Below are positions 8,594-27,198 of a stretch of DNA of 64,000 bases, in pieces. The position numbers and the translations under genes were made by a program. Position 1 is the first letter of the stretch; every line of letters begins with the position of its first letter. The DNA comes from Telmatobacter sp. DSM 110680 (lineage in GTDB: Bacteria > Acidobacteriota > Terriglobia > Terriglobales > Acidobacteriaceae): assembly GCF_039994875.1 (NCBI RefSeq), contig NZ_CP121196.1, forward strand, positions 620,001-684,000, given 5' to 3'. The notes beneath the pieces are model-generated. The model searched no databases and was not told where the DNA came from. It saw only the letters and a list, made by a program, of their open reading frames with translations.

Positions 8594-11155
8594 CTATTCC
8601 AGATGACCGGGATCCATTTCTTGGCTGCGAAGTTTGATCATTTCCAAGGCTCGAAGCACGAATGCATTCCATGCAAAGACGCGGTGATATCCAAAGAATC
8701 TGTTTCTCTCATCGGTCGGCAGATACTCCTGACTCGTTGGGTAGTTTTCGTCTATGTGCAGTTCGGCCCACATTCTGTTTGCAATCGCATGCTCTGACTT
8801 CTCCCACCCATGGAGTTTCCCTGTGACATACCCGCAGATTTCGATCCTCATCCAACTTCCGCCGTTGTAGTACACGCCGTCGGCAGCTTTGTTTGCATAG
8901 CCGGCAGCATAGGAGTCGCTGACCATCGGGTGCCACTTTTCGTTGAAGTAACTCCAGTCTTTCCCTCCTTGCGGCAGACCGATGAAGATTGGTCTTACTG
9001 AGCCACCTTCTTCAGGGAATGGGCAATTGTTGCGCGGCAACATGACTGGAATCCGGTTGAGGTGACTGATAACCATTTCGTCCGTCAGAATCTTCCGATT
9101 GAAAAGCCAGAGCGATAGAAACTCAGGAAAGATATCGGCAAAACCAATAGCATCGCGAATATTTCGTGACGGGCAAAGAAATCCAAGGCTCGCGTCATAG
9201 TAGCTGCGATACCCTGCCTCCGCCTTTGCAATGTAGTTCTCCGCGATAGTTGCGCTTAATTGTGGAATCTCCAGCTCTCGAATCGTTCTCAGCAACACGG
9301 CCAACATTCCCTGGTTCTCGCAGAGAATACTGGTGCCCTCGGGATATTGAATTACGTCGAGTTGACCCATGACAAACTTGGCTGTGCAAACAGCTTCGCG
9401 CTTCGGGTCGTAAGCAGCAAGGCAGTATTCCGCCGCTCGGCGAACTTTGTCCATGGGAAGCTTGGTACCGAATCGACGTCGATTGAGGAGCGCCCACATC
9501 AACCAGAGTGGCGTTGAATCGTTGGACTTGCGTTCCAGGTTGGCGATCTTCGGTTCGACCAGGGTGTTGATCGCTCCGTCCTCTCCCTGGTTGTCCGCCC
9601 ATAGGGCAAAGACTTTCTCGTTCAGTGTGCGATCGTAAATGCCGTTGAGAGAGTAAAAGCTATCTCGCAGGTACATCTCGCCTGCAGCTGAATACCAGAT
9701 GCTGGGCGCCAACATGGGCCGCAGACCCTCTTGCTCACCAATCCAACTCAACATCATCACGTCCGCATAGAGCACCTTCTCGGTGTCGCCCCCTTTGAAA
9801 CCCATGCCGTCTGCGAGGTGAAGCTGACTTGCGAGGCGATAACCGCTTAAAGTATCGAGGACCGTATCGCTGACGAATATGAACGTAGTCTTCGATTGCG
9901 GCCGGTCCATCTCCAAGCGGTGGTAAGGCTCATTCCGGGTTACGATACGAGAGACCTCTAGATCGCTTACTTCGAACGACGGCAGTTTGCCACCCTCAGA
10001 TCGAAGTTCCGCCTCGGCAAGAAAATCAGGGAGTGACAAAACAATCGCGGCGCCCACCCCTTGCAGAGCGGGCACAACAAACGAATGATGGAATTCTGCG
10101 AATACCGATGGGGATGCTGGTGCCGTGTCATTGAACAGCGTGAGATCGCCAAGCTTGTGAAACTCGTCGTCCACGTCCCATGCGTGGATAGAAACCGGAA
10201 CCGCAGAGCGATATTTGAGTGCCACAGAATAGATATCGCCGCCTCTTGCCGAAAGTGGCACGAGAACGAAATCTTTAACCGTGCTGGGAGACAGCTTGAC
10301 GACACCGTCTTGCTGTTCGACTTTGACGTTGCCGCTCTTTTTCCACGCTGATGGAGCGGCGAGATCAACCCGGATGTGCGAACCCTCCCCAGACATCTGG
10401 ACAGTGGATTCTCCAAATGTCTGCTGGATGAATGAGCCTCGCTCCGCACGATCAGCGATGTTTGGGAGACTGTAGAGATTCAGATCGGGGATTCTGGCCG
10501 GAGCTGGCTTCACGGGTGTTCCATCACGCCGTATGATCCGGCTCCATTGATTGCGATATCCGGAATCTGTGAGAAGGCCCACGGTCACTCCATTTTGGGT
10601 GCGGAAGCCGGCAGCTGGGAAATATTCATGCAGTGCCCCGCCTTTGCAATCCGCATGATCGAAACTCCAGAGCTTTGCGGGAACTGTCTCGGGATCCAGA
10701 CGATTTGTAATCTGGTAAAGCAGCGCGAACATATCAGCCTGTCGCAAATGAATCGTCTTTTTTATTACCTGTGTCGATACAATTTCGTACCTGACTTCGA
10801 CGAAAACAGTCGTGCGTAGATTGATGAGTTGCATTTCTCCTGAAAGATGAACCTGCCTTCCGTCGCCCTTCCAGGATGCGGCTTTCCAATCATCGACCCG
10901 ATCTTCGAGACTCCTTTCGTCGTTCTGGAAGACGGCTGAGAACTCCCCGCCGTTACGATGCCGCGCGATAGCACGACCACGATAAAGAATCGTGACTCCG
11001 TACCCATTTTGGGCATCGCCAGTCGTCTCAAGAGAGATCCCATCAGTTTCGGATGACTGAGAAGCGTATACGGATTCGGGCAGCAGAGTTGCCACTGAAG
11101 TAAGTGCCGAAAGCGCAAGAAACTCACGGCGGTCCAGTCTTGAGTGAGACGCCAT
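8594..11155 (-). CDS. Tat-exported putative glycoside hydrolase (six-hairpin type)
   Basis: 853 residues. The N-terminus has a twin-arginine signal (LDRREFLALSALTS) with cleavage likely near residue 31. A beta-rich region of about 400 residues precedes a C-terminal ~430-residue helical half containing the acidic segment WADNQGEDGAINTLVEPK and repeated W/Y-rich helices. That layout is typical of (alpha/alpha)6 toroid glycosidases. I cannot name the GH family. It is the last gene of the GH130 locus, 15 bp after the kinase gene, so the substrate is probably the same glycan. AAGGAAT about 10 bases upstream supports the ATG. The hydrolase role is inferred from fold-like features and context. Confidence 0.65.
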   Translation of the reverse strand: MASHSRLDRREFLALSALTSVATLLPESVYASQSSETDGISLETTGDAQNGYGVTILYRGRAIARHRNGGEFSAVFQNDERSLEDRVDDWKAASWKGDGRQVHLSGEMQLINLRTTVFVEVRYEIVSTQVIKKTIHLRQADMFALLYQITNRLDPETVPAKLWSFDHADCKGGALHEYFPAAGFRTQNGVTVGLLTDSGYRNQWSRIIRRDGTPVKPAPARIPDLNLYSLPNIADRAERGSFIQQTFGESTVQMSGEGSHIRVDLAAPSAWKKSGNVKVEQQDGVVKLSPSTVKDFVLVPLSARGGDIYSVALKYRSAVPVSIHAWDVDDEFHKLGDLTLFNDTAPASPSVFAEFHHSFVVPALQGVGAAIVLSLPDFLAEAELRSEGGKLPSFEVSDLEVSRIVTRNEPYHRLEMDRPQSKTTFIFVSDTVLDTLSGYRLASQLHLADGMGFKGGDTEKVLYADVMMLSWIGEQEGLRPMLAPSIWYSAAGEMYLRDSFYSLNGIYDRTLNEKVFALWADNQGEDGAINTLVEPKIANLERKSNDSTPLWLMWALLNRRRFGTKLPMDKVRRAAEYCLAAYDPKREAVCTAKFVMGQLDVIQYPEGTSILCENQGMLAVLLRTIRELEIPQLSATIAENYIAKAEAGYRSYYDASLGFLCPSRNIRDAIGFADIFPEFLSLWLFNRKILTDEMVISHLNRIPVMLPRNNCPFPEEGGSVRPIFIGLPQGGKDWSYFNEKWHPMVSDSYAAGYANKAADGVYYNGGSWMRIEICGYVTGKLHGWEKSEHAIANRMWAELHIDENYPTSQEYLPTDERNRFFGYHRVFAWNAFVLRALEMIKLRSQEMDPGHLE

Positions 11156-11170
11156 ATTTGCTGATTCCTT

Positions 11171-12118
11171 TTATCGTTCAGAGCTTGCAACTTGAGGGCT
11201 GAGCTGAATTAGGTTGGCAAGGCGCTGAGCGCGCCACACAGCGCCCTCGATACCAGCCACTTCGCGCTGGCCAACAGGCATGTTGGGCGCCGCTGCTCGG
11301 AGACCGGCAAAGAATGGTTCGCGAACCAAACGCCCTCTACCGATCACGCTGCCAATCCAAGCAACAGGAACCTCATCGACAAGGTTGTGTCTTTGGCGCA
11401 GTTTTGCGCGCACCAAAAGTACGGATTCGATCAAATCGGCTGCGGCCTGGTGCATAACATCCGCAGCCACGCTATCGCCTTCCTCGGCAAGATTGTGAAT
11501 TGCGGGAGCGAGCGCCGCAAAGTCTGGCCCTGGCGTGCTATCGCCCATATTCACCAGTTCATCAATGCATGAGGTGTCCCAAATGCGACCCACAGTTTCA
11601 AGGACTCGCGTAGGCTCATTGCGGTCGTAAGCCTTCAATGCGCGCCGGACGGCGTGTAGGCCAATCCAGTAGCCTGAGCCCTCATCGCCCAGCCGGGAAC
11701 TCCATCCACCAACGCTCTCTCTTCCGCCATCAGGGGCACGACCAATACAGTTTGAACCTGTACCTGCAATCTGCAAGATGCCTGGACCGCCCTTAAAAGC
11801 TGCATCGAGGGCAATGACCTCGTCACCGACAATTTCAGATTGCTCTACCCCGAAATCTCTGAAGACGTTTCTGATCCATTCGGCGACGCCGGGCATAGTG
11901 GAACTTGCGACGCCCACAGATGCGGCGCACACGCCACTGATACCAGCTTGTTTGTAGACGGTAGAGAGCAGCTCGCGCAGATTCTCTTCCGCCACTTCTG
12001 CGCCTACGCGGAGACGCTTGATCGATCCAGACTCCGCAAATGCAACAACCGATTCTCCTGACACGACCGAAGCACGCGTACGAGTGCCTCCGCCGTCAAT
12101 TCCCAGGACAACACTCAT
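11171..12118 (-). CDS. BadF/BcrA-type kinase, probable N-acetylglucosamine kinase
   Basis: 315 residues, the usual length of eukaryote-type GlcNAc kinases. The ATP phosphate-binding loop GIDGGGTRTRA is at residues 6-16. The second signature GTGSNCIGRAPDGG and the GGWSSRLGDEGSGYWIG segment are the family's adenosine and sugar-side motifs. It is expected to phosphorylate an amino sugar or related hexose in the cytoplasm. It sits between TPR and glycosidase genes in the GH130 locus, which fits phosphorylation of the sugar freed by a phosphorylase. GlcNAc specificity is likely by family resemblance, but other hexosamines are possible. Confidence 0.8.
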   Translation of the reverse strand: MSVVLGIDGGGTRTRASVVSGESVVAFAESGSIKRLRVGAEVAEENLRELLSTVYKQAGISGVCAASVGVASSTMPGVAEWIRNVFRDFGVEQSEIVGDEVIALDAAFKGGPGILQIAGTGSNCIGRAPDGGRESVGGWSSRLGDEGSGYWIGLHAVRRALKAYDRNEPTRVLETVGRIWDTSCIDELVNMGDSTPGPDFAALAPAIHNLAEEGDSVAADVMHQAAADLIESVLLVRAKLRQRHNLVDEVPVAWIGSVIGRGRLVREPFFAGLRAAAPNMPVGQREVAGIEGAVWRAQRLANLIQLSPQVASSER

Positions 12119-12197: not shown

Positions 12198-13772
12198 TCA
12201 TGGATTGGGTGAAGATGTCGCAGTGTCCTGCGGCTGAAAACTACCGCCTCGCTCACGTTGTTTGCGGAGCGCATCGTTTCGTTTCTTGCTTACCAACTCT
12301 TGAGTTCTCTGCGCTTCCTGTTGGGCTTCATCGCGTAACCCCAGATGTGTGTAAACCCTGCTCAACTGGAAGTGCGCGGCTCCGAACTGAGGATTCAGTT
12401 GAACAACATGCTCAAAAGCCTGCCGCGCCTTCTGCCAGTCCTCCTTCGCCTCGTACAGCTTGCCCAGTTCAAAAGATGGATCAGGTGAATTCGGATCCAA
12501 CTGCTCGGCCTGCTGAAGTGCGCCGATGGCTTCCTGTTCGCGACCAAGTCGGCTTGCCAACAGGCCAAAGTAATACTCCAGCAAATAATGGCCAGGGCGT
12601 TTGATGCGTGCTGCCTCAAGAACGCGTATCGCCTCCGTGTCATTGGCCTCACGAGCGTAAGTCTGGGCCAGGCCGACGTAGGCGGCATCGAGTTCGGGAT
12701 TCTCGGCAAGAGCAGCATTGAACGCATCGCGGGCGGCAGAATAGTCGCCCTTAATCATCTCGACGGCGCCCAGACGCAGATTTAAAGGGGAGGTCGCCAG
12801 AGTTTGGTCCATCCCAATTTGGATAAACTGGATCGCCTCGTCGTAACGGTCCATGTCCATCAATAGCCGAGTGTAATCCAGTGTTCGATCCAGATTGGAT
12901 GGGTCGGCGATAGCTGCAGCACGATAGGCATCCAATGCTTCAGACATCTTTTGCTGAGCTTCGAACGCCGCTCCGAGAAACGTGAGAGTGTTTGCATCTC
13001 CCGGTCGCTCTTTATGCAGTGCCGCAAGCAGCGTTGACGCCTCAGTTGAATTGCCGTCGTAAAGCAACGCTAGTCCCAGGTTGTATCGGTTATTCCATGA
13101 CGGGTCGATTGTGGCAATGCGTTGGAAGCAGTGAGACGCCTGCTCAAATTGCGCGCGCTGGCTCAGTAGCACCGCAATCCTGTATTCGCGTGCTGGCTGG
13201 AGTTGATCGGTCTCCTCCATCTTCTTGATTCGGTTGGCGGCATCGTCTACCCGTCCAGCACGAATCTCAGCTTCGATCAAACCTGCGCCAGCTTCCGGAT
13301 CTCTGTCGACCAATTGCCCAGCTTCATGAACCTGCTTGAGGGCTTCAGAATCATGATTCGTGGCTAGTGCCAGCAGCAACAGATAGTAGTGCGCGAAGGG
13401 ATCGCTGGGATCGAGAGCGGAAGCCTTTCGGAGTTCCGGTTCCGCGCCCGTATAATCTTTTTCGTTCAACAGGCTAAATCCAAGATTTCGATGCGGCGCT
13501 GCTTGCGATGGATCGATACGAATTGCATTGCGATAGTGAGTTGACGCTGCGGCTGGATGACCAAGGTTGGTTTCTGTGATCCCGAGCAGATTCTCAATTG
13601 TGGCATTGCGGGGGGCAGCTCGGTGCGCCTCTTCCAGCTTGACCAGAGCTTGATCGAAATGGCCTTCTCGAATCAGCCTTGCACCGTCGTCCAAGGCAGA
13701 ATTCTGCGCGGTGAGTGAATACACAGATATAAGCAATAGGACGGCAAGAGCAGGGATTCGATTCCGGTTCAT
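12198..13772 (-). CDS. secreted TPR-repeat protein
   Basis: 524 residues with a signal peptide (MNRNRIPALAVLLLISVYSLTAQ) and then about a dozen tetratricopeptide repeats, seen as recurring 34-residue A-x-x-Y/L-P patterns such as DPSDPFAHYYLLLLAL and DPNSPDPSFELGKLY. The C-terminus is charged and Gln-rich. Its start overlaps the stop of the preceding TPR gene by four bases (13769-13772), so the two are translationally coupled. It is probably a periplasmic or outer-membrane scaffold. It lies where a SusD-type glycan-binding lipoprotein would be in Bacteroidota, but no such fold is visible. Confidence 0.8.
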   Translation of the reverse strand: MNRNRIPALAVLLLISVYSLTAQNSALDDGARLIREGHFDQALVKLEEAHRAAPRNATIENLLGITETNLGHPAAASTHYRNAIRIDPSQAAPHRNLGFSLLNEKDYTGAEPELRKASALDPSDPFAHYYLLLLALATNHDSEALKQVHEAGQLVDRDPEAGAGLIEAEIRAGRVDDAANRIKKMEETDQLQPAREYRIAVLLSQRAQFEQASHCFQRIATIDPSWNNRYNLGLALLYDGNSTEASTLLAALHKERPGDANTLTFLGAAFEAQQKMSEALDAYRAAAIADPSNLDRTLDYTRLLMDMDRYDEAIQFIQIGMDQTLATSPLNLRLGAVEMIKGDYSAARDAFNAALAENPELDAAYVGLAQTYAREANDTEAIRVLEAARIKRPGHYLLEYYFGLLASRLGREQEAIGALQQAEQLDPNSPDPSFELGKLYEAKEDWQKARQAFEHVVQLNPQFGAAHFQLSRVYTHLGLRDEAQQEAQRTQELVSKKRNDALRKQRERGGSFQPQDTATSSPNP

Positions 13773-15697
13773 TGCTTCGCCCCGTGGTCTGCATGATCGT
13801 CGGTGGAGACGGCGGCTGACCTCTCGGTTTTGATGGCGCGCACCTGGGCAAAGAGCTTAGCGGCTTCGTCTGTCTTGCCCTCAGCGCGCAGGACTTGCGC
13901 AAGCTGATAGTGCACACCTCCATCGCGATCATGCGCGAGATCGCGTTTTAGAATCTCTTCAGCTTGGGCATAGTTCTTCTGCGTTGCGTAGGCTTGACCC
14001 AGTTGCTGGTATGCAGGCCACAGATCGGGCTTGCTGCGAATTGCCAACTCGAGATGGGGAATTGCCTCTGCTGTGCGATCTTTCGCGATGAGTACGGCGC
14101 CGAGTTCCCCGTTAGCCTCAGGATGTCCCGGATCAAGTTCCAATTGACGCGTCAACTCGGCAAATGCATGATCCGCATCGCCATGCTTCCAGTAGAGATG
14201 ACCGAGCCAAAAATGTACGTCGGGAAGATTCGGATCAGCTGCCTCCACGTCACGATATTCAGCAAGTGCCTTCTCGTCTTCCTCGCGATCGACGTAAAGC
14301 TGGCCCATCAACTGGTGCACATGGTAAGAATCCGGCGCGACGGCGACCAAACGGGCAATTTGTGCGATCGCCACTTGACGACGCACGACGACGAGCTCAT
14401 AGCGCGCAGAAAGATCGTTGGGGTGGATTGCCAACCAGCGAAGAAGATCTGCCTCGGCCGTGTCATAGCGGTGCTGATGCATTGCATCAATCGCTTGGGC
14501 GAAGGCACCCTCATTCGGTTTCGCCTTTTGCGGAGCAGGGGCGAGCCGCTTGTATGCTCGGGCCGCAGCAGCGTCATCTCCCGAAAGTGCATATAGGCCC
14601 GCAAGTGCGACATCTCTTGCGACGCTTGACGGTTGCGTCGCCTCCAGCTTTTGCTCCTGTGCACTGCAAAGCGCAACAAGGTCGGCATTCGCCTCGCCGG
14701 CTGAGATGCGCCCTTCTACGGGCAGTCCAATTGCATCGAGTGCTTCGCTTTCGTTGACTTTGATCGCCAGCTCGATGTTCGAAAGTCCTTCTAGTAGTTG
14801 GCCGGAGAGAATCCGCACCTCACCGCGTTTTGCCAGCACAGTTGCCGACCTTGAAGACAGCGTGCCCGCCTGCTGAAGCTGTTCCAGAGCGGCGGGCAGT
14901 TGAGCTTGATCGAGGAATACCTCGGCAAGATCGAGGTGTGCATCGACCGACTTGGGATCGCGCTGAATTGCGCGGCGCAGATGGCCTTCGGCCTTGGTCC
15001 AATCGTGGTCAACTGCATAGGTGCTCGCATAGATTCGATCCGAAATGGCCGTCCCGGCAGAGTCTTCCAGTAGCTGTTCCGATTGCTGCTTTGCGGCCTT
15101 GCCGTATGCTTCACCAAGCGCGAACAGCAAATCAGGATCATCTGAGAACAGTGCGGCGGCTTTTCGCAATTGAAGCAAGGCTGCATCCAATTGTCCTGCG
15201 TTCCAGAGCGCTGTTCCCAGCCAACTCTCAGCCTGCTTTTCCTGCGGGTTCTGTCGGACTGCCTCACGTAAAAGTGGGACTGCCTGTGCCGGATGATTCA
15301 GACGAACTTCATCAATCCCCAGCCATAGGCTTACACCGCGCATGCCGGGCCTCAGCTTCCCTGCTCTCGACAGCGCACGCACAGAATCGTCGAATTTAGA
15401 CTGAGCATAATAGACCAGCCCAAGATTTACCCACGCCTCAGGCAGTCCGGGAGCAAGCTTCAACACGGCCAAGTATTCATTGACTGCGTCATCAAGCCGG
15501 TTCTGCTGCTGTGCCTGTTGAGCAGCGAGAAAGTGTTGCTGAACCTGATCCTGGGTTTGTGAACTTAAGATCTGGGCATTGCCGAATAATGAAGGCACGA
15601 ATGCAATTAAAACTAGAGCGCAGGAATACAAAACCTGCGCGCAACGGCAAGCAAACATGGATCGATAGAATTGTATTTTCGCTTCGCTGAATGCCAT
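13769..15697 (-). CDS. exported TPR-repeat protein
   Basis: 642 residues. A hydrophobic segment at about 21-40 (LYSCALVLIAFVPSLFGNAQ) acts as signal or anchor, and TPR units fill the rest (for example APGLPEAWVNLGLVYYAQSK and PDLWPAYQQLGQAYATQKNY). It ends in the ATGA overlap with the next TPR gene. A 154-bp gap containing a strong hairpin separates it from the Oar-like receptor upstream. The two TPR proteins differ in length and sequence, so they are not a recent duplication. Likely a periplasmic partner of the receptor; this is inference from order only. Confidence 0.8.
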   Translation of the reverse strand: MAFSEAKIQFYRSMFACRCAQVLYSCALVLIAFVPSLFGNAQILSSQTQDQVQQHFLAAQQAQQQNRLDDAVNEYLAVLKLAPGLPEAWVNLGLVYYAQSKFDDSVRALSRAGKLRPGMRGVSLWLGIDEVRLNHPAQAVPLLREAVRQNPQEKQAESWLGTALWNAGQLDAALLQLRKAAALFSDDPDLLFALGEAYGKAAKQQSEQLLEDSAGTAISDRIYASTYAVDHDWTKAEGHLRRAIQRDPKSVDAHLDLAEVFLDQAQLPAALEQLQQAGTLSSRSATVLAKRGEVRILSGQLLEGLSNIELAIKVNESEALDAIGLPVEGRISAGEANADLVALCSAQEQKLEATQPSSVARDVALAGLYALSGDDAAAARAYKRLAPAPQKAKPNEGAFAQAIDAMHQHRYDTAEADLLRWLAIHPNDLSARYELVVVRRQVAIAQIARLVAVAPDSYHVHQLMGQLYVDREEDEKALAEYRDVEAADPNLPDVHFWLGHLYWKHGDADHAFAELTRQLELDPGHPEANGELGAVLIAKDRTAEAIPHLELAIRSKPDLWPAYQQLGQAYATQKNYAQAEEILKRDLAHDRDGGVHYQLAQVLRAEGKTDEAAKLFAQVRAIKTERSAAVSTDDHADHGAKQ

Positions 15698-15765
15698 TGC
15701 CTGATCCTGTTCGGAGTTTTCTAAAGATGAATTTGTAATCCGAATTAGGTAGCGCTTGAATATTC

Positions 15766-15803
15766 AACACTTCCGAACCTCGCTGAAGAGGTCCGGAAGT
15801 GTT
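15766..15803 (-). other. strong hairpin between receptor and TPR genes
   Basis: The arms 15766-15781 and 15788-15803 match at 15 of 16 positions around a 6-base loop. There is no U-run after it on the minus strand, so it is not a classical terminator. It sits 3' of the receptor stop and 5' of the TPR gene, where a stem could stabilise the receptor mRNA or partly stop transcription. The stem is seen; its role is inference. Confidence 0.6.
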
Positions 15804-15851
15804 GGGTGGTTTTCAAGGTCATACGTAACAGCTCAGGTTAACTTGTCGGCG

Positions 15852-18800
15852 TCAGAATTCGATCCGCAAAGAACCCTGAATGTTTCTCGGTCCATACGCC
15901 AGGCCTCCAGCATTTCCAAAGTTTGAATTGGTGTTGACCAGTGGGTCACAGGTTTCCGTCGCCGAAGTACTGCAACTCACTGACGTGTCAAAACCGGTGA
16001 AGGTGTGCCGGTTGAAGATGTCGAAGAACTCCACACGGAAGTCGGTGTGGACCCTTTCGGTGAACATGGGAATGGCCTTGGTGACGTTAAAGTCCTCACT
16101 CTTGTTAAACAGTTCCCTTACCCCAAGAGCCTTAGGTGCGTCTCCAAAGGTGAAGTTGGGAGCTGGCGTGAAGGCAGCCTGGTTCAGGAGGCGGCTCTGC
16201 CCCCAGACATACTTGCCGTGGAGCGCACGGACTGGTTGTCCAGAAACGATGTTGGGACGTCCGTGTGAATTGCCGGTTGCGCCTTCAGGGCCCGCGAAGA
16301 TTCCCGAAGTCCATCCGGATGAAGATACGGTGAGCGGGGTGCCACTTTGATATTTCTGGACGGCGGCAATCTTCCATCCACCAACGAGCACGTTGACGGG
16401 GCCGCCCTGGTTCGCGAACTTCTTTCCCTTGCCAAAAGGCAAATCGTAAGTCCACGCCAAAACAACACGCTGCGGGATGTCAAACGAGCTGAGCGCCTTC
16501 TCGACCTTCAGGTTGTAGGTGTTCAGGGCACCTGCATTCCCATTGCCTTCCCAACCGGCCTCACTCGGATATTCCGAATCGGCATTGGTGATGTTCTTTG
16601 ACCAGCTGTAGTTGGCTAAAACGGTCAATCCACCGCTGAGTCGCTTTGTTGCCTGCACCTGGAGTGCATGGTAGGTGTAGTCGCCAAATGGATCATCCAT
16701 CGTTGCGGAATCAACCGAGACGGTGCCGTATTGCGGGTAGGGCCGCAAAGCCTGCGAGACGGTGCCGGTGAATCCGGCAAACGGTGATGGCACTACACTC
16801 TGGCCTGCACAAGCAGGATTGCCGGACTGGTCCGCGATGTTCACCTGCAGGCATCCACCTCGGGCCATATTAACGGGATTCCCCTGGTTCGGGTCGTGCA
16901 TGAATGCCTGCAAGTGGTCGCCGTGAGCGCCTACGTAAGCGACGTCCACGATTGTCTGCAGGGGCAGCTGGCGTTGAACATCAAGCGTCCAGTTTTGGAT
17001 AGTACCTGGGCGGTCGACCTTCGACTCGATGAAGAGGGCATTGCCATTCCCGTTCATGACTGTGGGGTCGATGAAGGGCGGCTCCTTGCCGGGATAGGCC
17101 GTGATCTGCGAGAGCACGACGACCGGGGTCTGAATGCTGGCTGCGGTGGGGTAGGTGTAGCTGGAGAAGAAGCCCTGGCTATCGTTCTCAGCAAAACCTC
17201 CAACGCGTTGGGTAGAGAAGTAAATCCCATAGCCGGCGCGGATGACAGTGTTGGGATCAACTTGATAGGCGAGACCGACGCGAGGGCCGATGCCCTTCTT
17301 GAAGCTCGTCTGTGGGGTACTGCCGCCAAGGCGACCCGGTCCGTCGCCTTCGAATACGTAGGCACCAGGAAGACCTCCCGCGCCAGGATTCGGCAGAGTT
17401 GGGTTCACAAAGGACATGCGGTTTTTCTGCTCCGTCACCGGGATTGGCATGTCGTAGCGAAGGCCCAGGTTGACGGTAAGCTTGTTGTTGAGCTTCCAGT
17501 CGTCGTTGCCGAAGAAGGAAAGATACTTGGCGCGCCATCCGTTGTTCTGCGGGATTGAAACAGAAGCATTTGAGGCTGCGCCGAGGTAGAAGCTGGCGAA
17601 GCCAAAGCCGGAGTTGGTGTCAGCGGCAGTGCTTGTGGGGCCGCTCGTGAAGTTGAACTGGCCAGCGCTGCCGGTAAGAATATCCAGGTTGAACTGCGCG
17701 GCGCGATATTCGCCGCCAAACTTGAAGCTGTGCCGCCCCTTCTGCCACGAGACCACGTCGTCATATTGAAAGACGTTGTCGACAAAGGTGCTGGCGCCAT
17801 CGCTCGGGGTATTGATGCCATTGCCAGGATAGTTGTAGCTGAAACGTGGGAAGACCTGGTCCTCTACGCCCTTGAGGCCAAACTTACTGGCCCAGTTCCC
17901 GCCATATCCGCCCTGGCCCGAGCCTTCGATGCGATGGCGACGGGTGAAGCCAGCGTTGAAGTGGTTCAACATGGTGGGCGAGATGAAGAAGTCATAACCC
18001 AGACGCACATATTTGTTGCCCTGTGTGTTGCCACCTGTGTACAGGGGCCCAAGGCTCGAGGTGCTGACGTAGGGCATGTTACCGGTAAAGTAACTGCCCG
18101 AGATTTTGTTACGCGCGTTGATGTTCTGGTCCATGCGTATGGACCACTCATCGGCCTGCTCGTGGTTGGCACTGTTGACTGGGATGTTGAAATAGGGGCT
18201 GGTGACGCCTGCGGGGGCAACCGGCATAACCTTTTGCGCTGCTGCAAAAACGGGGTCTGGGGCTTCGGTGATTTTGTTGTTCGGATATGCCTGGCAGGGC
18301 TGTCCCTGGTTGGCTCCGGTGCAGGTTGTGTAGTCGTAGAGAATGTGGGCCTGGAAGTTCTGCCCGTTGACTGTCACAGGAGTGAGAAGAGCCGAGAAGT
18401 CGCCGCCGAGCATTGCCTGGGTGGGAGCAGACAGCAATGATTTGCCGCCATTTACCTGCCGGAAGCCTTCGTAATTGAAGAAGAAGAAGGTCTTGTCTCT
18501 GCCGTTGTAGAGCCACGGAACGCGCACCGGTCCGCCCAGGCTTGCGCCGAAGTCGTTCTGGGTGTCTAGAGGCTTGGTTGCTGAGTTGGCCCCGAAGACA
18601 GCATTTTGGTAATCGTTGAGCCAACTGTTCGCGTCCAGGACGCGATTCTTGAGCAGATCGTAAGCAGAGCCGTGAAAGTCGTTCTTCCCTTGCTTGGAGG
18701 CAAGATTCACCACTCCGCCGCTGGCGCTTCCAAACTCAGCATCAAACGTGTTCGTTAAGACCTTGAACTCGGAGACAGCCTCCACGCTGAACCCATAAGT

Positions 18801-19460
18801 GACCTGCATATTTGCCGAGGCGAGCTCGGTGGTCGCACCGTCAAGAAGGATGTCCTGACCGCCCTGTTGTCCTCCGCTGAGCTTGAAGTTTCCGGAGGGC
18901 GGGGAGGAGGGGTTATTGGTCATGTCGCCGGCGAATCCAGGCGCGAGAGCTGCAAAATCGAGCGGGTTGCGAATCTCACCGCCGAAAGGCAGAGGAAGCG
19001 CATCCAGCACCTGCGGGGTCATCGTGAAGCCGACTTCGGGCGATTCAGTTTCCAGATGCGATGCATCGCTGTTCACGCTGACCGTAGCGGACTCAGCACC
19101 CACCTTCAACGCTGTGTTCACCGTGGAAGTGCTGCCCACGTCGACGGCAATGCCGCTCTGACTGTAGGACTCGAACCCTGGCGCTGTCACAGTGAGCGTA
19201 TAGGTTCCGGGGGGAAGTTCACTGAACGTGAACAGTCCCTCCTCTGTCGCTTTGGAGGTATAGCTGCTGCCTGTGTTTGTTTCCTTCAGAGTTAATCCGG
19301 CGCCTGGGATGAACGCGCCATTCGCATCTTTCACAGTGCCGATCAGAGTGCCTCTGTTCGACTGGGCCAGGACGGGGATTCCGACCCACAAACTGAGCAC
19401 CACCAACAGCCACGTCGCCACTCGCCAGTACGTTTGCGCCTTGGAATCTCTGTGCATCAT
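15852..19460 (-). CDS. Oar-like TonB-dependent receptor
   Basis: 1202 residues from the ATG at 19460, chosen because AGGAGG lies six bases upstream. The frame is open further up but overlaps the MFS gene. Order: signal peptide (to about VLAQSN), carboxypeptidase-regulatory beta domain (GTVKDANGAFIPGAGLTLKE), plug domain, then a long outer-membrane beta barrel ending in SLRIEF with the terminal Phe needed for barrel insertion. This Oar type is the main receptor family of Acidobacteriota. Here it sits in a glycan locus just after an inner-membrane permease (26-bp gap), so import of an oligosaccharide across the outer membrane is the likely job. Confidence 0.9.
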   Translation of the reverse strand: MMHRDSKAQTYWRVATWLLVVLSLWVGIPVLAQSNRGTLIGTVKDANGAFIPGAGLTLKETNTGSSYTSKATEEGLFTFSELPPGTYTLTVTAPGFESYSQSGIAVDVGSTSTVNTALKVGAESATVSVNSDASHLETESPEVGFTMTPQVLDALPLPFGGEIRNPLDFAALAPGFAGDMTNNPSSPPSGNFKLSGGQQGGQDILLDGATTELASANMQVTYGFSVEAVSEFKVLTNTFDAEFGSASGGVVNLASKQGKNDFHGSAYDLLKNRVLDANSWLNDYQNAVFGANSATKPLDTQNDFGASLGGPVRVPWLYNGRDKTFFFFNYEGFRQVNGGKSLLSAPTQAMLGGDFSALLTPVTVNGQNFQAHILYDYTTCTGANQGQPCQAYPNNKITEAPDPVFAAAQKVMPVAPAGVTSPYFNIPVNSANHEQADEWSIRMDQNINARNKISGSYFTGNMPYVSTSSLGPLYTGGNTQGNKYVRLGYDFFISPTMLNHFNAGFTRRHRIEGSGQGGYGGNWASKFGLKGVEDQVFPRFSYNYPGNGINTPSDGASTFVDNVFQYDDVVSWQKGRHSFKFGGEYRAAQFNLDILTGSAGQFNFTSGPTSTAADTNSGFGFASFYLGAASNASVSIPQNNGWRAKYLSFFGNDDWKLNNKLTVNLGLRYDMPIPVTEQKNRMSFVNPTLPNPGAGGLPGAYVFEGDGPGRLGGSTPQTSFKKGIGPRVGLAYQVDPNTVIRAGYGIYFSTQRVGGFAENDSQGFFSSYTYPTAASIQTPVVVLSQITAYPGKEPPFIDPTVMNGNGNALFIESKVDRPGTIQNWTLDVQRQLPLQTIVDVAYVGAHGDHLQAFMHDPNQGNPVNMARGGCLQVNIADQSGNPACAGQSVVPSPFAGFTGTVSQALRPYPQYGTVSVDSATMDDPFGDYTYHALQVQATKRLSGGLTVLANYSWSKNITNADSEYPSEAGWEGNGNAGALNTYNLKVEKALSSFDIPQRVVLAWTYDLPFGKGKKFANQGGPVNVLVGGWKIAAVQKYQSGTPLTVSSSGWTSGIFAGPEGATGNSHGRPNIVSGQPVRALHGKYVWGQSRLLNQAAFTPAPNFTFGDAPKALGVRELFNKSEDFNVTKAIPMFTERVHTDFRVEFFDIFNRHTFTGFDTSVSCSTSATETCDPLVNTNSNFGNAGGLAYGPRNIQGSLRIEF

Positions 19461-19486
19461 GTCGTGCCTCCTAATAATCATTGTTT

Positions 19487-20773
19487 TCATGCCTCCGAAG
19501 TGAGTCCGGTGAAGCTTGCGGCGGTGGAGGTGGTGCCCGCTGCGGCAAGACCGCGAAAGATCTGGCCAGCTACCCGGATGGACAACAACTGCAATAGCGC
19601 AATTACAGGTAAGGCGTACTTGAGTGCGGCATTGCCGGACCAGCCGTAAGCAATGGCGAGGAATAGTCCACACCCCAGACAGCGCCCCGTGAACAGTCCG
19701 AATTCGTGATTGAAAATGTATGCGTACTCATTGCGCTCCTCGAGCCGCGAGACTACATCGATGACCTGCAACTGAATCGGATAATAGGCAAGATCCAGAA
19801 GCGGTTTAGCCAGCAAGAGACATGCGATGAAGATCAGTACGCCGACGGCATTGAAGAGCAAGGTATTAGCGATTGCGCCCAGGAAGAAAAGCAGGAGCGC
19901 TGCGGAAAAGACAATGATGCGATGTTTGGGAGCGGCAATACGGCCAACCGTATACATGATGCAAGCCGTAAACACGCCACCGATGGCCTGGGTTGCTCCC
20001 AGAGTTCCCTCTTGCCCTACCAGCAGCATGATGAGCATGGCTGGCGCGGTAACGATATATCCCTGCGCCAGGCCTTTGAGGAGAGCCAGCTCGAGCATCC
20101 GCCACCATAGCCGATGAAATCGGAAATAAACAAAGCGCGTGTGTTTTGGATTTCGGAAGGTGCCTCGTTCAAGAATGCCTGCAGCGAGAATCGTCAGGCC
20201 AAACACCACCATAGCTACGATGTGGTACGCGCGATTAGGGATTCCTCCCAGCCAGCCGTACAGAGTGGTCCCGCTGATGAACCACCCGATCGAAGCCGGA
20301 ACCGCAACTGCAGCCAGGGTGGCCACGAAGTTTTCGATTCCGTAGTAATAATTCCTATTGCTGTCCTCCGTCGCAGTCAGGGCGAGGAAACCACGGTTGG
20401 CCCAGAATAGCCCGGTTGCCAGTCCCATGGTGAATCCTGATGTGGCTACGCCGATGGGAGTGAGGATGCTCAGTTGCATCATCAGCATCATCGCAACTCC
20501 CGACAGAAGCATTCCCGCGGCGTAGAGATGCTTGGCTCCGATGCGGCCGAGCAGCTTGCCGTTTATATAGAAAGCCAGCGGAGTGGCCGCGTAGATCGAC
20601 AACTGGTAAGTGACCACTTTGGCAACGGCCCGGGAGTTCCGCATGACATATGCCGCCACGAAAATCTCAATCACTGGCAGGACAAGGGCATACATCATGT
20701 TGGAGACCATCAATATCTGCATCGAACGCGAGCAACTTCGGAAGACTTCAAACTCTTTGCGTAGACGGTTCAT
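19487..20773 (-). CDS. MFS-type inner-membrane transporter of the glycan locus
   Basis: 428 residues from the ATG at 20773, which overlaps the GH130 stop in an ATGA (20770-20773). About 12 transmembrane helices are visible, with a basic mid-loop (GTFRNPKHTRFVYFRFHR) between halves as in MFS proteins. A longer frame upstream would lie inside the GH130 gene and is unlikely. Coupling to the phosphorylase gene upstream and the receptor gene downstream suggests it carries the oligosaccharide from periplasm to cytoplasm. The exact MFS family is not recognised. Confidence 0.75.
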   Translation of the reverse strand: MNRLRKEFEVFRSCSRSMQILMVSNMMYALVLPVIEIFVAAYVMRNSRAVAKVVTYQLSIYAATPLAFYINGKLLGRIGAKHLYAAGMLLSGVAMMLMMQLSILTPIGVATSGFTMGLATGLFWANRGFLALTATEDSNRNYYYGIENFVATLAAVAVPASIGWFISGTTLYGWLGGIPNRAYHIVAMVVFGLTILAAGILERGTFRNPKHTRFVYFRFHRLWWRMLELALLKGLAQGYIVTAPAMLIMLLVGQEGTLGATQAIGGVFTACIMYTVGRIAAPKHRIIVFSAALLLFFLGAIANTLLFNAVGVLIFIACLLLAKPLLDLAYYPIQLQVIDVVSRLEERNEYAYIFNHEFGLFTGRCLGCGLFLAIAYGWSGNAALKYALPVIALLQLLSIRVAGQIFRGLAAAGTTSTAASFTGLTSEA

Positions 20774-21837
20774 GCTGTCACCGTCGGAGTCAAAGGGAGG
20801 CTCGCAAGGATGCCAGCAATCGACATTTGCGCGGCGCATATCACGCTGTCGGCGGCGCCGTAGTAAAGCGTTAAGTTGTCCCCATCGACCAGGTGGCCAT
20901 TGGTGAAAATAACGTGGCCGAAAAAGCCCTCCTGCTCGTAAGGAGCCAGCGGCTCCATGATCGGATTCTCGGAGCGTGCGATCACTCGCCAGGGTTCCTC
21001 AAGATCTAGCAACAGAGCGCCGAGGCAATAGCGGTTTTCCTTGGTCGCGCCGTGATAAATCTCCAGCCAGCCTTCGGCAGTTCGGATCGGTGCCGCGCCG
21101 GCTCCAACACGCGCACTATCCCAATACCCCTCGCGGCTCTGGGCCAGGCAGCGGTGCCGACCCCAGTGAATTAAGTCCGGCGACTCTGCCAGCCAGATGT
21201 AGTTACCGCCCAGTTCCGGGCTGCTGGGCCGATGGAGAGCGTAGTACTTGCCACCAATCTTCTCTTCAAAGAGAGCGCAATCTTTGTTGTGCGGAGGAAA
21301 AATCATCCCCTCATGTGCGAAGTTCTTCCAATCGCGCGTGGTCCTCAGTCCCACGCCTACGCCATTGCTTGAAACCTCCGTGTAGGTCAGGCAATATGTG
21401 CCGTCGATCTTCGCGACTCGGCAATCTTCGATTCCGTAGGTCTCCAATTCACCGCTCCCCATAAGGGGCACACCGTGCTCCGGCTCTCTAAAATCGACGC
21501 CGTCGTTGCTCACCAGCAACCGGAGATGGGAGAGAGTGGTGAGATAGTCTTTTCCATCGAAACTGATTACGCGAGGATCCGTCAGGTCCAGCCTAGGATC
21601 ATCCGAGTTGAACTCCAGAACTTCAAGCTTGCCGTCGGCATTCAGGATTGGAAAAGAAGTTCTACCAGGAACCTGCTTGGGACGTTCGGCAACTCGCACC
21701 AGCAGCCAGGTTCTTCCGTTGTACTTGAAGACTCCCGGATTCAAAAGGCATGTAACTTCCATGCCATCCACGCTGGGACGGATGTCTGCGGGCTTGAGCA
21801 GAGGGTTCTCTCGGAAGCGTCGTGCCAGATCTTTCAT
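20770..21837 (-). CDS. GH130 family beta-mannoside phosphorylase
   Basis: 355 residues, the normal length for GH130. Visible family features are ENPLLKPADIRPS at the start, LNPGVFKYNGRTWLLVRVAE, the catalytic acid Asp87 in LTDPRV, and the NKDCALFEEKIGGKYYALHR block that shapes the sugar and phosphate sites. These enzymes cleave beta-mannosides such as Man-beta-1,4-GlcNAc or Man-beta-1,4-Glc with phosphate in the cytoplasm, giving mannose 1-phosphate; some members are hydrolases. It is the first gene of a seven-gene minus-strand locus and overlaps the permease gene. The subfamily, and so the exact disaccharide, cannot be fixed by eye. Confidence 0.88.
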   Translation of the reverse strand: MKDLARRFRENPLLKPADIRPSVDGMEVTCLLNPGVFKYNGRTWLLVRVAERPKQVPGRTSFPILNADGKLEVLEFNSDDPRLDLTDPRVISFDGKDYLTTLSHLRLLVSNDGVDFREPEHGVPLMGSGELETYGIEDCRVAKIDGTYCLTYTEVSSNGVGVGLRTTRDWKNFAHEGMIFPPHNKDCALFEEKIGGKYYALHRPSSPELGGNYIWLAESPDLIHWGRHRCLAQSREGYWDSARVGAGAAPIRTAEGWLEIYHGATKENRYCLGALLLDLEEPWRVIARSENPIMEPLAPYEQEGFFGHVIFTNGHLVDGDNLTLYYGAADSVICAAQMSIAGILASLPLTPTVTA

Positions 21838-22010: not shown

Positions 22011-22253
22011 TGTTTGTCGAAGTTGACTGCGAGGGATTTTTCGCCTGGGACCTCCAAGCACGAGTTTCCCCGAGAAGAAGCCCATCATGTACTGCAGGAA
22101 TTTTTATGCTGAATCGACGCATAGGTCTGTCCCAAACAGGCTTTCATTCGTTGAATGGATGCGCTACAATCAGCGCGCACTCAAGAACTTCTTGTGAGCG
22201 CCAAGATTGGATTTGAAAATCGGTTGTATCAAGCGAAATGGAATCAGACTCGG

Positions 22254-23534
22254 ATGAAGGAAGTAGATCCGGAACTTCGGGCTGACGCCCGCTGGCAGTT
22301 GATCGAAAGAATCACAGCCAGCCCGCCGTTCCAGAAGTCGGCGCGTTTAAGAGAACTCCTTCGCTTCATGGCCGAAAGGTCAATTCGAGGCGAAATCCAG
22401 GATCTGAGCGAACACCGAATTGGCAGCGCTGTTTTTGGTAAGGCCGAAGGCTATAGCGTTGTCGAGGACAGTTCAGTACGGGTTCACGTTCGGCAGCTGC
22501 GTCTCAAGCTCCACGAGTATTTCGACGGAGAAGGACGAGAAGAACCATCCATCGTCGAGATCCCAAAAGGGGCCTACACAACCCTCTTTCGGCCCGTTGA
22601 GCACAGGACTTCGACGGCTCCGGTGCCCGTCGCACAAAATCAATTGGGACCCGGACTCTGGATCAGGGTGCTGCCCTGGGCCCTTGCGGCGTGCTTTTTC
22701 GCCACCACTCTAATTGCCTGGTTCAGTCGTCCGACGATTGCGAATCCACCTGCGCCGCCCTGGCCGCTGGCTGCACTTTTTAATCCGCCCAACAAACCGG
22801 TCGAAGTAGTCGTTGCGGATGTCAATTACGGGATGACTCGTCTGGTGGACGAGCAGCCCGTGACACTCGAGCGGTATCTGAGCCCCTCTTATCGAAGTGG
22901 CGAAGATCTGTCTAATGCTCACCCGACGAGTCGCGAAGCGCGCATGATGAAGTACTTGTCCGGCTCACTGCTAACGTCATATGCGGACCTTGTCGTGGTG
23001 GACACTCTCATGCGGCTGAGTGGGAGCTCGCGCGACTGGCTTGCGATTCGATCGGCGAGAGAGTTGCGACCGCGTGACTTGGAGGCCGGCAATTTTGTCT
23101 TTGTAGGTAGCCCCAGTTCAAATCCCTGGGTGTCCTATTTTCAAGACAAGCTCAACTTTCAGGAAGGCGAAGGCAAGGTTGGCGAAAGCCTCAAATTCTT
23201 CCGGAATGCCCATCCGAAACCGGGCGAACAAGCAACCTACCAGGGTTTAGCCTTCACCGGGAGTTCAGGGGAAGATTACGCGACAATCTCATTGTTGCCA
23301 CTTGCCAACGGCCGAGGTAGTGTCCTCATCCTGCAAGGATTGCAACAGGAGGGGACCGAGGCGGCTGGACTGTTCCTGGCCGATGCCGGCAATCGGCAAA
23401 AGCTCCAACAAGCCCTCGGCTTCTCCGGCTCGCCTACCCAGCCCGTCTACTTCGAAGCCCTCATCAGGACTCAGGCAGTTGCAGGCGCTCCCAATGCAAC
23501 GTCAATCATCTCCACACGCGTGATCAACCCCTGA
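22254..23534 (+). CDS. ToxR-like membrane-anchored transcription regulator
   Basis: 426 residues from the ATG at 22254. A start at 22155 is also open, but the added residues do not look like protein. The N-terminal ~115 residues show the acidobacterial DNA-binding domain: RLRELLRFMAERSIRG, LSEHRIGSAVFGK, SSVRVHVRQLRLKLHEYF, VEIPKGAYTTLF. One transmembrane helix at about 137-156 follows, then a ~270-residue periplasmic domain without TPRs. This is the plan of a one-component sensor that reads the periplasm and binds DNA. It is divergent from the GH130 locus and is the natural candidate to control it. Confidence 0.75.
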   Translation: MKEVDPELRADARWQLIERITASPPFQKSARLRELLRFMAERSIRGEIQDLSEHRIGSAVFGKAEGYSVVEDSSVRVHVRQLRLKLHEYFDGEGREEPSIVEIPKGAYTTLFRPVEHRTSTAPVPVAQNQLGPGLWIRVLPWALAACFFATTLIAWFSRPTIANPPAPPWPLAALFNPPNKPVEVVVADVNYGMTRLVDEQPVTLERYLSPSYRSGEDLSNAHPTSREARMMKYLSGSLLTSYADLVVVDTLMRLSGSSRDWLAIRSARELRPRDLEAGNFVFVGSPSSNPWVSYFQDKLNFQEGEGKVGESLKFFRNAHPKPGEQATYQGLAFTGSSGEDYATISLLPLANGRGSVLILQGLQQEGTEAAGLFLADAGNRQKLQQALGFSGSPTQPVYFEALIRTQAVAGAPNATSIISTRVINP

Positions 23535-23581: not shown

Positions 23582-25102
23582 CTAACTTCGAATCTCGACG
23601 GCCTTCGCCTCAAAGGGACGCAAAATCAACTCTCCGGTCCCCGCATGGGTTTGCAGTGGCTTCTTGCGCATCAGGTCATACAATCGGTCTTCTTTATTCG
23701 GCATCGCAACTGTTACGCGCTTCGCTTCCGGCCAAGGATTGTAATACAGAAATGCAGGTGGCAGATCTGGCTCCATAAAGTCCGTTTTACCCAGATCCCA
23801 GCGCAACAGCCATGGATCTCCCTGCGTCTGAATCATCTTGTCCAGCCACATCGCATACGCGCCCCCATAGATTGAGCGGTGCGCGGCGAAGTCCCCGGTT
23901 GCGTAGGGACTGTGCCCTTTCTCTTCCCTGCTCAACCGCTCGTAGGGGAACATCGGCGGCAGTTCTGGACGACTTTGATTCTCGTGCGGCAAGTACTCCG
24001 GATAAAACAAGCGCATGTTTGCTGAGACGTTTAATGCCAGGCGCGCCACCTCGCCAGCTAACTCCGGACGGAATCGAACCGCCGGCAAAAGATACGGCAG
24101 CGTCACCATCGACTCCATACTGTAGGTTTGGCCGGCAGGCTCCGTGCAGAAGCCTGCCATAAGGCCATTGACCTCGCGTCCGCCCCACCTGCCAGTAGCC
24201 ATCAGCCCGATCTTGGCATCAAGCACGAATCGCAAGGCTTTTTCCGCATTCGTGGGATGGCCCATCGCTTCCAGTCGCGCGGCTGCCAACACTGCCATAG
24301 CCCCGCTTGGAATCTCATACCAGGGGTTCGCCGCAAAATCGAGATAGCGGTCAATCGCGATCTTGGCTTCCGCGAGAAATGTTTCCTTACCAGTCAGCTT
24401 CCACGCCAGAAGCATCACATAGCTGTAGCCGCCCACAGCGTCGGGTTGTCGATAGATGTCCTGCCTGGTAAAGGCTGCAGCTTTTGCAAAGTCGTAACCC
24501 TGACTATTGAAGTCGTAGTGGATTTGCTGCGCCATGTCCTTCAGCCGCGTCGCGCTTTTCTCTACCCGCGCTAGCCATTCCGGATCCTTTACAAAGCGCA
24601 ACCGGATCAGCCCATAGGCCATCGCAGTGACATTCATCAGGTACCAGTACTCGCAGAGCGTCGCACCCGCCCCATCAAGAAACAGCCCATACGGCTCGCT
24701 GAAGTAGCCCTTTAGTGAGGTTGCGAGGCCATCCAAACCCTCTCCTCGGAGTTCCTTGCCGAGAGCCATTGGTGCGTAGGTTGTCAGTCCTCCGTCCTGC
24801 TCGCCTTGAAGCGCGGAAGGAAAAACCTGGCGGCCATCTTTCGCGATCGTATTCAACCCATGTGCCGGGTCCATCACCCACGCGTCAAAGGCATTGGCGA
24901 GCGCATGGAAATCCAGCGGACGCTCCTCTGGCCGAGCCGGCAGCCCGCTCCAGCCAGGCGTTGCTTCGGCCCATGCGATTTCCTTTTCAGCGCATGCGAA
25001 GAATCCCAGTGCAGCAAATCCTGCCACGAACTCTCTACGGCTGGACAGCCAATCGCCTCCGGTCAGTTCACTTTTCTCTCTTGCCGTCTTTTCCACGTTC
25101 AC
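23582..25102 (-). CDS. Tat-exported toroid-type glycosidase-like protein
   Basis: 506 residues. Twin-arginine signal LSSRREFVAGFAALGFF with a Cys soon after (FFACAEKE). The body is helical with repeated Tyr/Trp-rich segments (CEYWYLMNVTAMAYGLIRLR, GGYSYVMLLAWKLTG, GAYAMWLDKMIQ), as in (alpha/alpha)6 proteins such as lyases and unsaturated glucuronyl hydrolases. No family was assigned and no catalytic residues are claimed. It converges on the regulator gene and lies next to the GH130 locus, so it may work on the same glycan. It is unrelated in sequence to the other Tat protein (8594-11155), judged by eye. Confidence 0.6.
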   Translation of the reverse strand: MNVEKTAREKSELTGGDWLSSRREFVAGFAALGFFACAEKEIAWAEATPGWSGLPARPEERPLDFHALANAFDAWVMDPAHGLNTIAKDGRQVFPSALQGEQDGGLTTYAPMALGKELRGEGLDGLATSLKGYFSEPYGLFLDGAGATLCEYWYLMNVTAMAYGLIRLRFVKDPEWLARVEKSATRLKDMAQQIHYDFNSQGYDFAKAAAFTRQDIYRQPDAVGGYSYVMLLAWKLTGKETFLAEAKIAIDRYLDFAANPWYEIPSGAMAVLAAARLEAMGHPTNAEKALRFVLDAKIGLMATGRWGGREVNGLMAGFCTEPAGQTYSMESMVTLPYLLPAVRFRPELAGEVARLALNVSANMRLFYPEYLPHENQSRPELPPMFPYERLSREEKGHSPYATGDFAAHRSIYGGAYAMWLDKMIQTQGDPWLLRWDLGKTDFMEPDLPPAFLYYNPWPEAKRVTVAMPNKEDRLYDLMRKKPLQTHAGTGELILRPFEAKAVEIRS

Positions 25103-25458: not shown

Positions 25459-27198
25459 ATGAGCAATCGAGCCACAGTCTCTTTGATCTTGCTCTTCTCT
25501 TCTCTCACTCTCTGTGCACAAACTCCCACAGCTTCCGTGACCTTACCGCTCGCGCAACCCGCTGTGCCGCACTTTCGGGATGTTTCGACGGAGGTCGGAA
25601 TTCGCACTCTACCTCACACCAATCTGGACAGGCGCTACGTCATCGAAACCATGAGTGGGGGAGGAGTTGCGTTTCTCGATTGCGATAACAACGGCAAATT
25701 GGACATCGCCGTAGTGAATGATTCCTCAATCGACCGCTACCTCGCTGGTGGCGATCCCATGATCACCCTCTACCGACAAGATGACAACGGCAAGACACTG
25801 CATTTCACCGACGTCACCGCGGCCGCAGGATTGACCACCAAGGGCTGGGCCACTGGGATTGCGGTCGCCGATTATGACAACGACGGTCTTCCCGATATTT
25901 ATGTCTCCGGCTACGGCCACAATGTTCTCTACCACAATCTAGGCGGCTGCAAATTCACAGATGTCACGGCAAAAGCAGGCGTCGCCGGCGGAGGCTTTAG
26001 TGCTGGAGCCGCCTGGGCCGACTATGACCGTGATGGATTTGTAGATCTTTACGTCGCTCGCTATGTCTCAACTGATCCCCGCCATCTTCCCGACCCTCAA
26101 CGCAAGGTTTACAAGAACGTCCTCACCGAACTGCCAGACAAAATGCCGGGTGAAACCAACCTCCTCTACCGCAATCGAGGCGACGGAACCTTTGAAGAAG
26201 TTGCGGCGAAAGCTGGTGTCCAAAACCCTCAGAAAGCTCACGGCATGGGCATCTGCTGGGGAGATTTCGACGGCGATGCTTGGCCCGATCTCTATGTCAC
26301 CAACGATGCTTCCAGCAATTTTCTTTTTCACAACAAGAGAGTCGGAACCTTCGAAGATATCGGCCTCAATTCAGGGACCGCCTACGGTGAGATGGGGCAA
26401 ACCTTTGGCAACATGGCATGCGATCTTGCCGACCTTGATCACAACGGAAGGTTTGACCTTTTCGTGACCCGATTTGCAGGTCAGCCCGCCAGCCTCTACA
26501 TCAACGACGGCCACAACGAGTTTCATGATGCGGCAGATCGCGCCGGAATCGCCGTCCCAACTTCTCCGCCCGTCAAGTGGGGAGCGAACTTCGCAGACTT
26601 CGACAACAGCGGATGGCACGATCTTCTCATGGCCTCGGGTAACTTCTCGACTTTGCTCGATGGCGCGCCTAGCGAACCGCCTTTTGTCGAGCCGATCGAG
26701 CTTTTCCTCAATCAGACAAATGGCACGTTCCGTGAAGTTGCCGCCGATACAGGCTTGAATGCAGGCCCCCTGAAATCTCGTCGGGGAACAGCCTTGGGCG
26801 ACGTCAACAACGACGGAAGACTTGACATCCTCGTCTTCAACGTTGGCGCTCCACCGTCGCTGTTTCTCAACGAGACCAGGAATGACAACCACTGGATCAC
26901 GCTGCGCCTGGTCGGCACAAAGAGTAATCGCATGGGCATCGGAGCACGAGTCACGGTCACCACCGGTAACATCAAGCAAGTGGATGAAGTGCGCGCCGGA
27001 GGAAGCTATCTCTCCACCAGCGACCCACGCCTACATTTTGGACTCGGATCAGCTCCCTACTTTGACCGTATCGAAATCCAATGGCCCAGTGGCTTGCACG
27101 AACAATTCACAGGCGGCCCTGGCGATCGGTTTATATCTTTGGTGGAAGGAAGCGGCACCTCATTGCCATCGGGGCAAGCTCATCCGAAGGAAAAGTAG
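25459..27198 (+). CDS. secreted CRTAC1-family protein (FG-GAP repeats plus ASPIC/UnbV domain)
   Basis: 579 residues. A signal peptide (MSNRATVSLILLFSSLTLCAQ) is followed by at least five FG-GAP/VCBS repeats with calcium-binding D-x-D/N-x-D-G loops, for example FLDCDNNGKLDIAV, VADYDNDGLPDIYV and WGDFDGDAWPDLYV. The ASPIC/UnbV C-terminal domain includes NRMGIGARVTV and IEIQWPSG. This is a beta-propeller extracellular protein class common in Acidobacteriota and Planctomycetota with unclear function. It faces away from the Tat-exported gene across a shared spacer. Confidence 0.88.
   Translation: MSNRATVSLILLFSSLTLCAQTPTASVTLPLAQPAVPHFRDVSTEVGIRTLPHTNLDRRYVIETMSGGGVAFLDCDNNGKLDIAVVNDSSIDRYLAGGDPMITLYRQDDNGKTLHFTDVTAAAGLTTKGWATGIAVADYDNDGLPDIYVSGYGHNVLYHNLGGCKFTDVTAKAGVAGGGFSAGAAWADYDRDGFVDLYVARYVSTDPRHLPDPQRKVYKNVLTELPDKMPGETNLLYRNRGDGTFEEVAAKAGVQNPQKAHGMGICWGDFDGDAWPDLYVTNDASSNFLFHNKRVGTFEDIGLNSGTAYGEMGQTFGNMACDLADLDHNGRFDLFVTRFAGQPASLYINDGHNEFHDAADRAGIAVPTSPPVKWGANFADFDNSGWHDLLMASGNFSTLLDGAPSEPPFVEPIELFLNQTNGTFREVAADTGLNAGPLKSRRGTALGDVNNDGRLDILVFNVGAPPSLFLNETRNDNHWITLRLVGTKSNRMGIGARVTVTTGNIKQVDEVRAGGSYLSTSDPRLHFGLGSAPYFDRIEIQWPSGLHEQFTGGPGDRFISLVEGSGTSLPSGQAHPKEK

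Follow-up and report, generated by a model that had tools for sequence, protein, structure and literature searches.

The window, a stretch of 64,000 nucleotides from the genome of Telmatobacter sp. DSM 110680, carries on its minus strand a series of genes that starts with a GH130 mannoside-phosphorylase-like enzyme (20770-21837) and an MFS transporter (19487-20839). These are followed by an Oar-type TonB-dependent receptor (15852-19460), two TPR genes, termed TPR1 (13769-15697) and TPR2 (12198-13772), a BadF/BadG-type (NagK-like) sugar kinase (11171-12118) and, finally, an exported protein of 853 aa (8594-11155), which has a twin-arginine-like N terminus and belongs to no Pfam family. The two large TPR proteins that a preceding sequence-only reading had placed behind the receptor gene are thus indeed found there, on the minus strand and with the receptor directly upstream; a plus-strand reading of the TPR interval was ruled out by its 45 stops. 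The stop codon of TPR1 and the start codon of TPR2 could be read to overlap in the four bases ATGA (13769-13772, minus strand). Most relatives retain this overlap, even those of only 33-42% identity, and it bears out the translational coupling that had been proposed for the pair. Between the receptor stop and the TPR1 start lies a 17-bp hairpin, CAACACTTCCGGACCTC-TTCAGC-GAGGTTCGGAAGTGTTG (15765-15804, minus strand).

In a Pfam scan the receptor matches PF25183, OMP_b-brl_4 (8.7e-186), and PF13620, CarboxypepD_reg (1.4e-20), and it thus combines a CarboxypepD_reg domain with a TonB-dependent barrel, as Oar-type receptors do. Its open reading frame starts at 19673, and since the signal peptide begins near 19460, the true start is probably at approximately 19460. 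As an open frame the receptor overlaps the MFS gene by 187 bases, with 19461-19673 as the stretch in question, and this overlap is likely not real. The same architecture has been described for Oar of M. xanthus (PMC6434023). However, the Myxococcus gene adjoins exbB and exbD and its product exports a protease, whereas the window receptor is part of a sugar locus with a TPR pair. The locus also resembles GH130 mannoside loci with MFS transporters in that GH130 and MFS genes lie directly upstream, but it adds the receptor and the two TPR genes, and this trio also occurs in loci without GH130.

TPR1 is a 642-aa protein with a predicted signal peptide of approximately residues 1-41; its mature form of 601 aa (65.9 kDa, pI 5.3) comprises about 16 TPR-like helix pairs. 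TPR2 has 524 aa with a predicted signal peptide of approximately residues 1-22, and its mature form of 502 aa (55.8 kDa, pI 5.2) comprises about 14 TPR units. Pfam TPR families match the two proteins with E-values down to 1.7e-35 and 4.4e-39, respectively, and both show the tandem 34-residue helix-turn-helix repeats of the TPR superfamily; no domains other than TPR or helical-repeat families were detected in the Pfam scan. None of the named TPR families (PrsT, MamA, PilW and others) exceeds its NCBIfam cut-off, the best scores being 136.6 against a cut-off of 312.2 for PrsT and 130.3 against 200 for MamA. Both signal peptides are of the Sec type. The context of the cleavage site is A^Q (...NA^Q and ...TA^Q) and is found again in orthologues, and neither protein has a lipobox in its first 60 residues. 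A soluble periplasmic protein is therefore the simplest prediction for TPR1 and TPR2. Thus, the export that had been claimed for the pair is supported, the predicted route ending in the periplasm.

AlphaFold models of each protein alone are all-helical, with pLDDT values of 89.1 and 90.7 and pTM values of 0.77 and 0.71 for TPR1 and TPR2, respectively, and show uninterrupted TPR superhelices of about 14-16 repeats without an additional domain. Foldseek matches include the TPRs of O-GlcNAc transferase, consensus TPR proteins, APC/C subunits and similar proteins; the TM-scores are modest, as is expected for long flexible solenoids. Moreover, residues of the concave TPR groove are more conserved than those of the outer helix (P = 0.002 for TPR1 and 4.7e-05 for TPR2). 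These P values come from a second look in which the helix phase was fixed, after a first count that mixed helix A and B phases had shown nothing. The groove conservation fits the binding of a partner in the groove. TPR2 has a short tail that is predicted to be disordered; close orthologues carry the sequence SFQPQ, or one very similar to it, in this tail.

We searched for TPR1 (E <1e-40) and for the receptor (E <1e-150) separately in 60 related genomes and recovered both in the same seven. The order receptor-TPR1-TPR2 is found in all seven sampled genomes that have a receptor at least 43% identical; for two of them the assembly breaks at the junction, and the contig ends share sequence that bridges the gap. 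The receptor and the TPR pair are both missing from the remaining relatives searched. An eighth, more distant receptor match (36%, genome G033) also has a TPR gene next downstream, and the order receptor-TPR1-TPR2 is likewise present in genome G443 of a phylum-wide sample. A scan of one genome per species yielded 24 loci, whose clear homologues belong to Acidobacteria and show the trio wherever the contig reaches; cultured carriers include Paracidobacterium acidisoli 4G-K13 and strain KBS 146. One exception to the layout is L105, in which the receptor is divergent.

The genes around the trio are less constant. Three loci (L095, L096 and L098) have the trio without GH130 and MFS and carry other enzymes instead, namely a transaldolase in L095, ThuA and PQQ proteins in L096 and two GH127 enzymes in L098. 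The trio is thus constant while the enzymes vary, which makes it a module of its own, and its persistence without GH130 and MFS ties the TPR pair to the receptor; a GH130-dependent role of the pair is ruled out by the same three loci. The BadF/BadG-type kinase is not constant at the loci of relatives, and the 853-aa protein follows TPR2 in several of them. Full-text literature searches did not turn up any account of a pairing between TPR genes and TonB receptors in Acidobacteria. The trio is real, conserved and, in the searched literature, undescribed; the protein folds themselves are ordinary.

The core of the hairpin between receptor and TPR1 is kept in 9/9 aligned loci, and further loci fold similarly. 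A strong hairpin of the CUCCCGGACCUC..GAGGUCCGGGAG type is found in the window and in L087-L092, L094, L099 and L104; at the equivalent position, the distant loci L095, L096 and L044 carry hairpins that differ in sequence. The hairpin of the window is not an intrinsic terminator, as it has no T-tract and is absent from the list of a terminator scan. Covariation is not significant compared to shuffles, so that the conservation is one of pairing and no proof of an RNA function. Searching for the hairpin as a dispersed repeat gave no exact consensus match in 21 genomes, with a strict pattern that misses the window's own variant. The hairpin could set unequal amounts of the receptor and the TPR pair.

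How general is the association between Oar-type receptors and TPR genes? The Telmatobacter genome encodes about 40 PF25183 receptors and at least about 52 TPR genes, as counted with one TPR model on 150 of 445 first-look candidates. For seven of the 40 receptors the gene that directly follows is a TPR gene in the same orientation, compared to about 0.4 expected, and a few further receptors have a convergent TPR neighbour. With an assumed total of about 5200 genes the P value of this excess is approximately 1e-7, and it still is 2e-4 if 160 TPR genes are assumed; the genes near receptors were called with a procedure of our own, which may have overlooked a few neighbours. Together with the recovery of receptor and TPR1 in the same seven of 60 genomes by separate searches, this argues against a random association of TPR genes with Oar receptors. 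Among 60 Oar-type receptors of eight other genomes, chosen from the best-scoring part of the list, three are directly followed by a TPR gene. This is a weak excess, with P ranging from 0.02 to 0.28 according to how many TPR genes are assumed. A TPR gene upstream, which served as an internal control, was found for one of 100 receptors. Most TPR neighbours whose N terminus could be read reliably start like a signal peptide, and none has a lipobox. About 90 of the 100 surveyed Oar-type receptors are not directly followed by a TPR gene, which rules out that Oar receptors in general have such a pair as their partner. On a receptor tree, inferred by FastTree and containing several long branches, the TPR label requires nine changes, at least eight of them on starred branches, compared to 16.8 for shuffled labels. 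All nine loci in the clade of the window carry the label, a count that is partly circular because it was TPR1 that led to most of these loci; the search of the 60 genomes that started from the receptor is free of this circularity.

We tentatively propose, giving it close to an even chance, that TPR1 and TPR2 are translated together and act in the periplasm as a scaffold or adaptor pair, specific to a single clade of Oar-type receptors that belong to sugar-uptake loci in Acidobacteriaceae. The two proteins would be made together, exported and soluble in the periplasm. There the pair would contact the receptor by docking on its periplasmic side, at the plug or the CarboxypepD_reg domain, and/or it might hold exported partner proteins encoded at the locus, either of which may help to hand on the incoming saccharide. 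Support for such a scaffold comes from the strict inheritance and order of the trio, the ATGA overlap, the signal peptides, the TPR solenoid models, the conserved groove and the recurrent TPR association on the receptor tree. A periplasmic scaffold or adaptor is favoured because of the groove conservation and the precedent of LbcA, an exported TPR protein that serves as an adaptor on the periplasmic side of the outer membrane and for which a role in wrapping clients and passing them to CtpA has been proposed (PMC8764530). LbcA (PA4667) is found among the profile matches of the TPR proteins, and the pair resembles it in that both are large exported, or in the case of the pair predicted to be exported, TPR spirals. 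However, LbcA is a lipoprotein with a protease partner, whereas the window pair has no lipobox and no protease gene was recognised at the locus. Several points weigh against the scaffold: most Oar-type receptors do without a TPR neighbour, which means that such a partner is no general need; the excess is weak outside the own genome; the location is a prediction from sequence; and the hairpin between the receptor and the pair may mean unequal expression and not a fixed 1:1 complex.

Acidobacteriota have a major part in degradation in soil, and each of their genomes encodes dozens of Oar-type receptors; to our knowledge, few studies have dealt with their saccharide uptake. A clade of receptors that is always inherited together with an exported TPR pair offers a defined and testable handle on this uptake, and the pair is a candidate for a transporter accessory other than SusD. 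A broader version of the proposal is possible but clearly more doubtful. It holds that in Acidobacteriota, which are SusD-less in the tested genomes, dedicated periplasmic TPR scaffolds bind Oar-type receptors and form a class of accessories that acts from the inner side of the outer membrane and was acquired several times on the receptor tree.

TPR proteins such as BepA and LbcA act on the folding, insertion or turnover of envelope proteins. The pair might accordingly be assembly or quality-control factors that fold, insert or turn over the receptor or exported enzymes without any role in transport. The TPR-family matches include BepA, LapB and PilW, all far below their cut-offs, and the presence of LbcA (PA4667) among the profile matches points in the same direction, as a spiral like that of LbcA can wrap a client (PMC8764530). 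A receptor-specific pair would, however, be unusual for general quality control, there is no recognised protease gene at the locus, and the similarity is one of TPRs in general. We consider this reading rather unlikely.

Somewhat less credit goes to an independent function, in which the exported TPR proteins only share regulation and a transcript with the receptor and serve, for example, another substrate or envelope stress. In its favour, TPR genes are common in the own genome, and Oar-associated loci also carry CRTAC1/ASPIC and phosphatase-like proteins. Against it, the order of the trio is constant while the surrounding enzymes change, and the receptor and the pair are jointly absent from the other relatives searched.

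The sequence-only reading had put the TPR proteins in the place expected for SusD and likened them to it. SusD consists of four TPR units, with a proposed receptor contact, and a glycan-binding part (PMC3969230); it is a surface lipoprotein and as such located outside the cell (PMC11658791). SusC/SusD systems (RagA/RagB, NanO/NanU) and the window locus are alike in that a TonB-dependent receptor of a glycan locus is followed by a helical protein with TPR units. The window pair, in contrast, consists of two exported TPR superhelices that are predicted to be soluble and that show neither a SusD profile nor a lipobox nor the arrangement of four TPR units plus a ligand-binding part. PF07980 (SusD_RagB) was detected in 0/60 related genomes while a Bacteroides control was positive, the Pfam scan gave no SusD family match for TPR1 or TPR2, and SusD is not among the 50 best fold matches, all of which are TPR superhelices or other helical-repeat proteins. 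SusD homology is thus ruled out, and neither the likeness nor the expected place is supported, the latter also in view of the roughly nine in ten receptors that lack a TPR gene directly downstream; the analogy covers the order of the genes and the type of repeat but does not extend to the family.

A surface lid, in which one or both TPR proteins would cover the receptor from outside in the way that SusD covers SusC, could appeal to the gene position behind the receptor and to the TPR units that SusD likewise uses for its proposed receptor contact (PMC3969230). It is improbable in light of the missing lipobox and SusD match, the ordinary TPR superhelices recovered by the fold search and the models, which show no inserted ligand-binding part. 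Of the two roles suggested for the pair, cap or scaffold, the scaffold therefore stays plausible, while capping of the outer face is unlikely because there is no lipobox.

A divergent gene on the plus strand (22155-23534) encodes a candidate ToxR-like membrane regulator, as judged from a winged-helix match (PF00486, E = 0.013, below the cut-off) and one hydrophobic segment (169-190). The gene is conserved at the locus, and its relatives also adjoin other Oar receptors. In a sensor branch, the TPR pair would report receptor occupancy to this protein, which in turn would control the locus. The conservation of the gene near the module and by other Oar receptors, as well as the hydrophobic segment and the weak winged-helix match, agree with such a role, but the gene was not seen at L095, L096 and L098, which keep the trio, and we regard a sensor as equally improbable as the lid. 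Finally, it is very improbable that the TPR proteins are cargo of an Oar-type channel, even though M. xanthus Oar is needed for secretion of the 50.8-kDa PopC (PMC6434023, PMC11658791) and the mature TPR proteins have 66 and 56 kDa, as the locus encodes sugar enzymes and a transporter and, the signal peptide apart, nothing points directly to export.

In addition to the periplasmic scaffold pair proposed here, the Oar loci show some further features. The proteins encoded at 8594-11155 and 23582-25102, both on the minus strand, are conserved and exported, have an RR motif near the N terminus and match no Pfam or NCBIfam family; they are candidates for unrecognised carbohydrate-active enzymes. 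An Oar receptor elsewhere in the own genome (5085286-5087885) is split into two frames, with an inner TGA, and is a possible pseudogene or frameshift. CRTAC1/ASPIC-UnbV FG-GAP proteins recur next to Oar receptors and TPR genes, in the window at 25459-27198 (plus strand) and in L064, L073, L076, L052 and L171, and may be one more component of such systems. A second Oar-TPR locus, with an Oar receptor and a TPR protein of 503 aa, is common to genera and was found in L049 (own genome, 116460-132450) and L128. It encodes phosphatase- or sulfatase-like proteins with twin-arginine-like N termini, and an open-ended protein of 1282 aa that joins FG-GAP, a thioredoxin-like part and TPRs.
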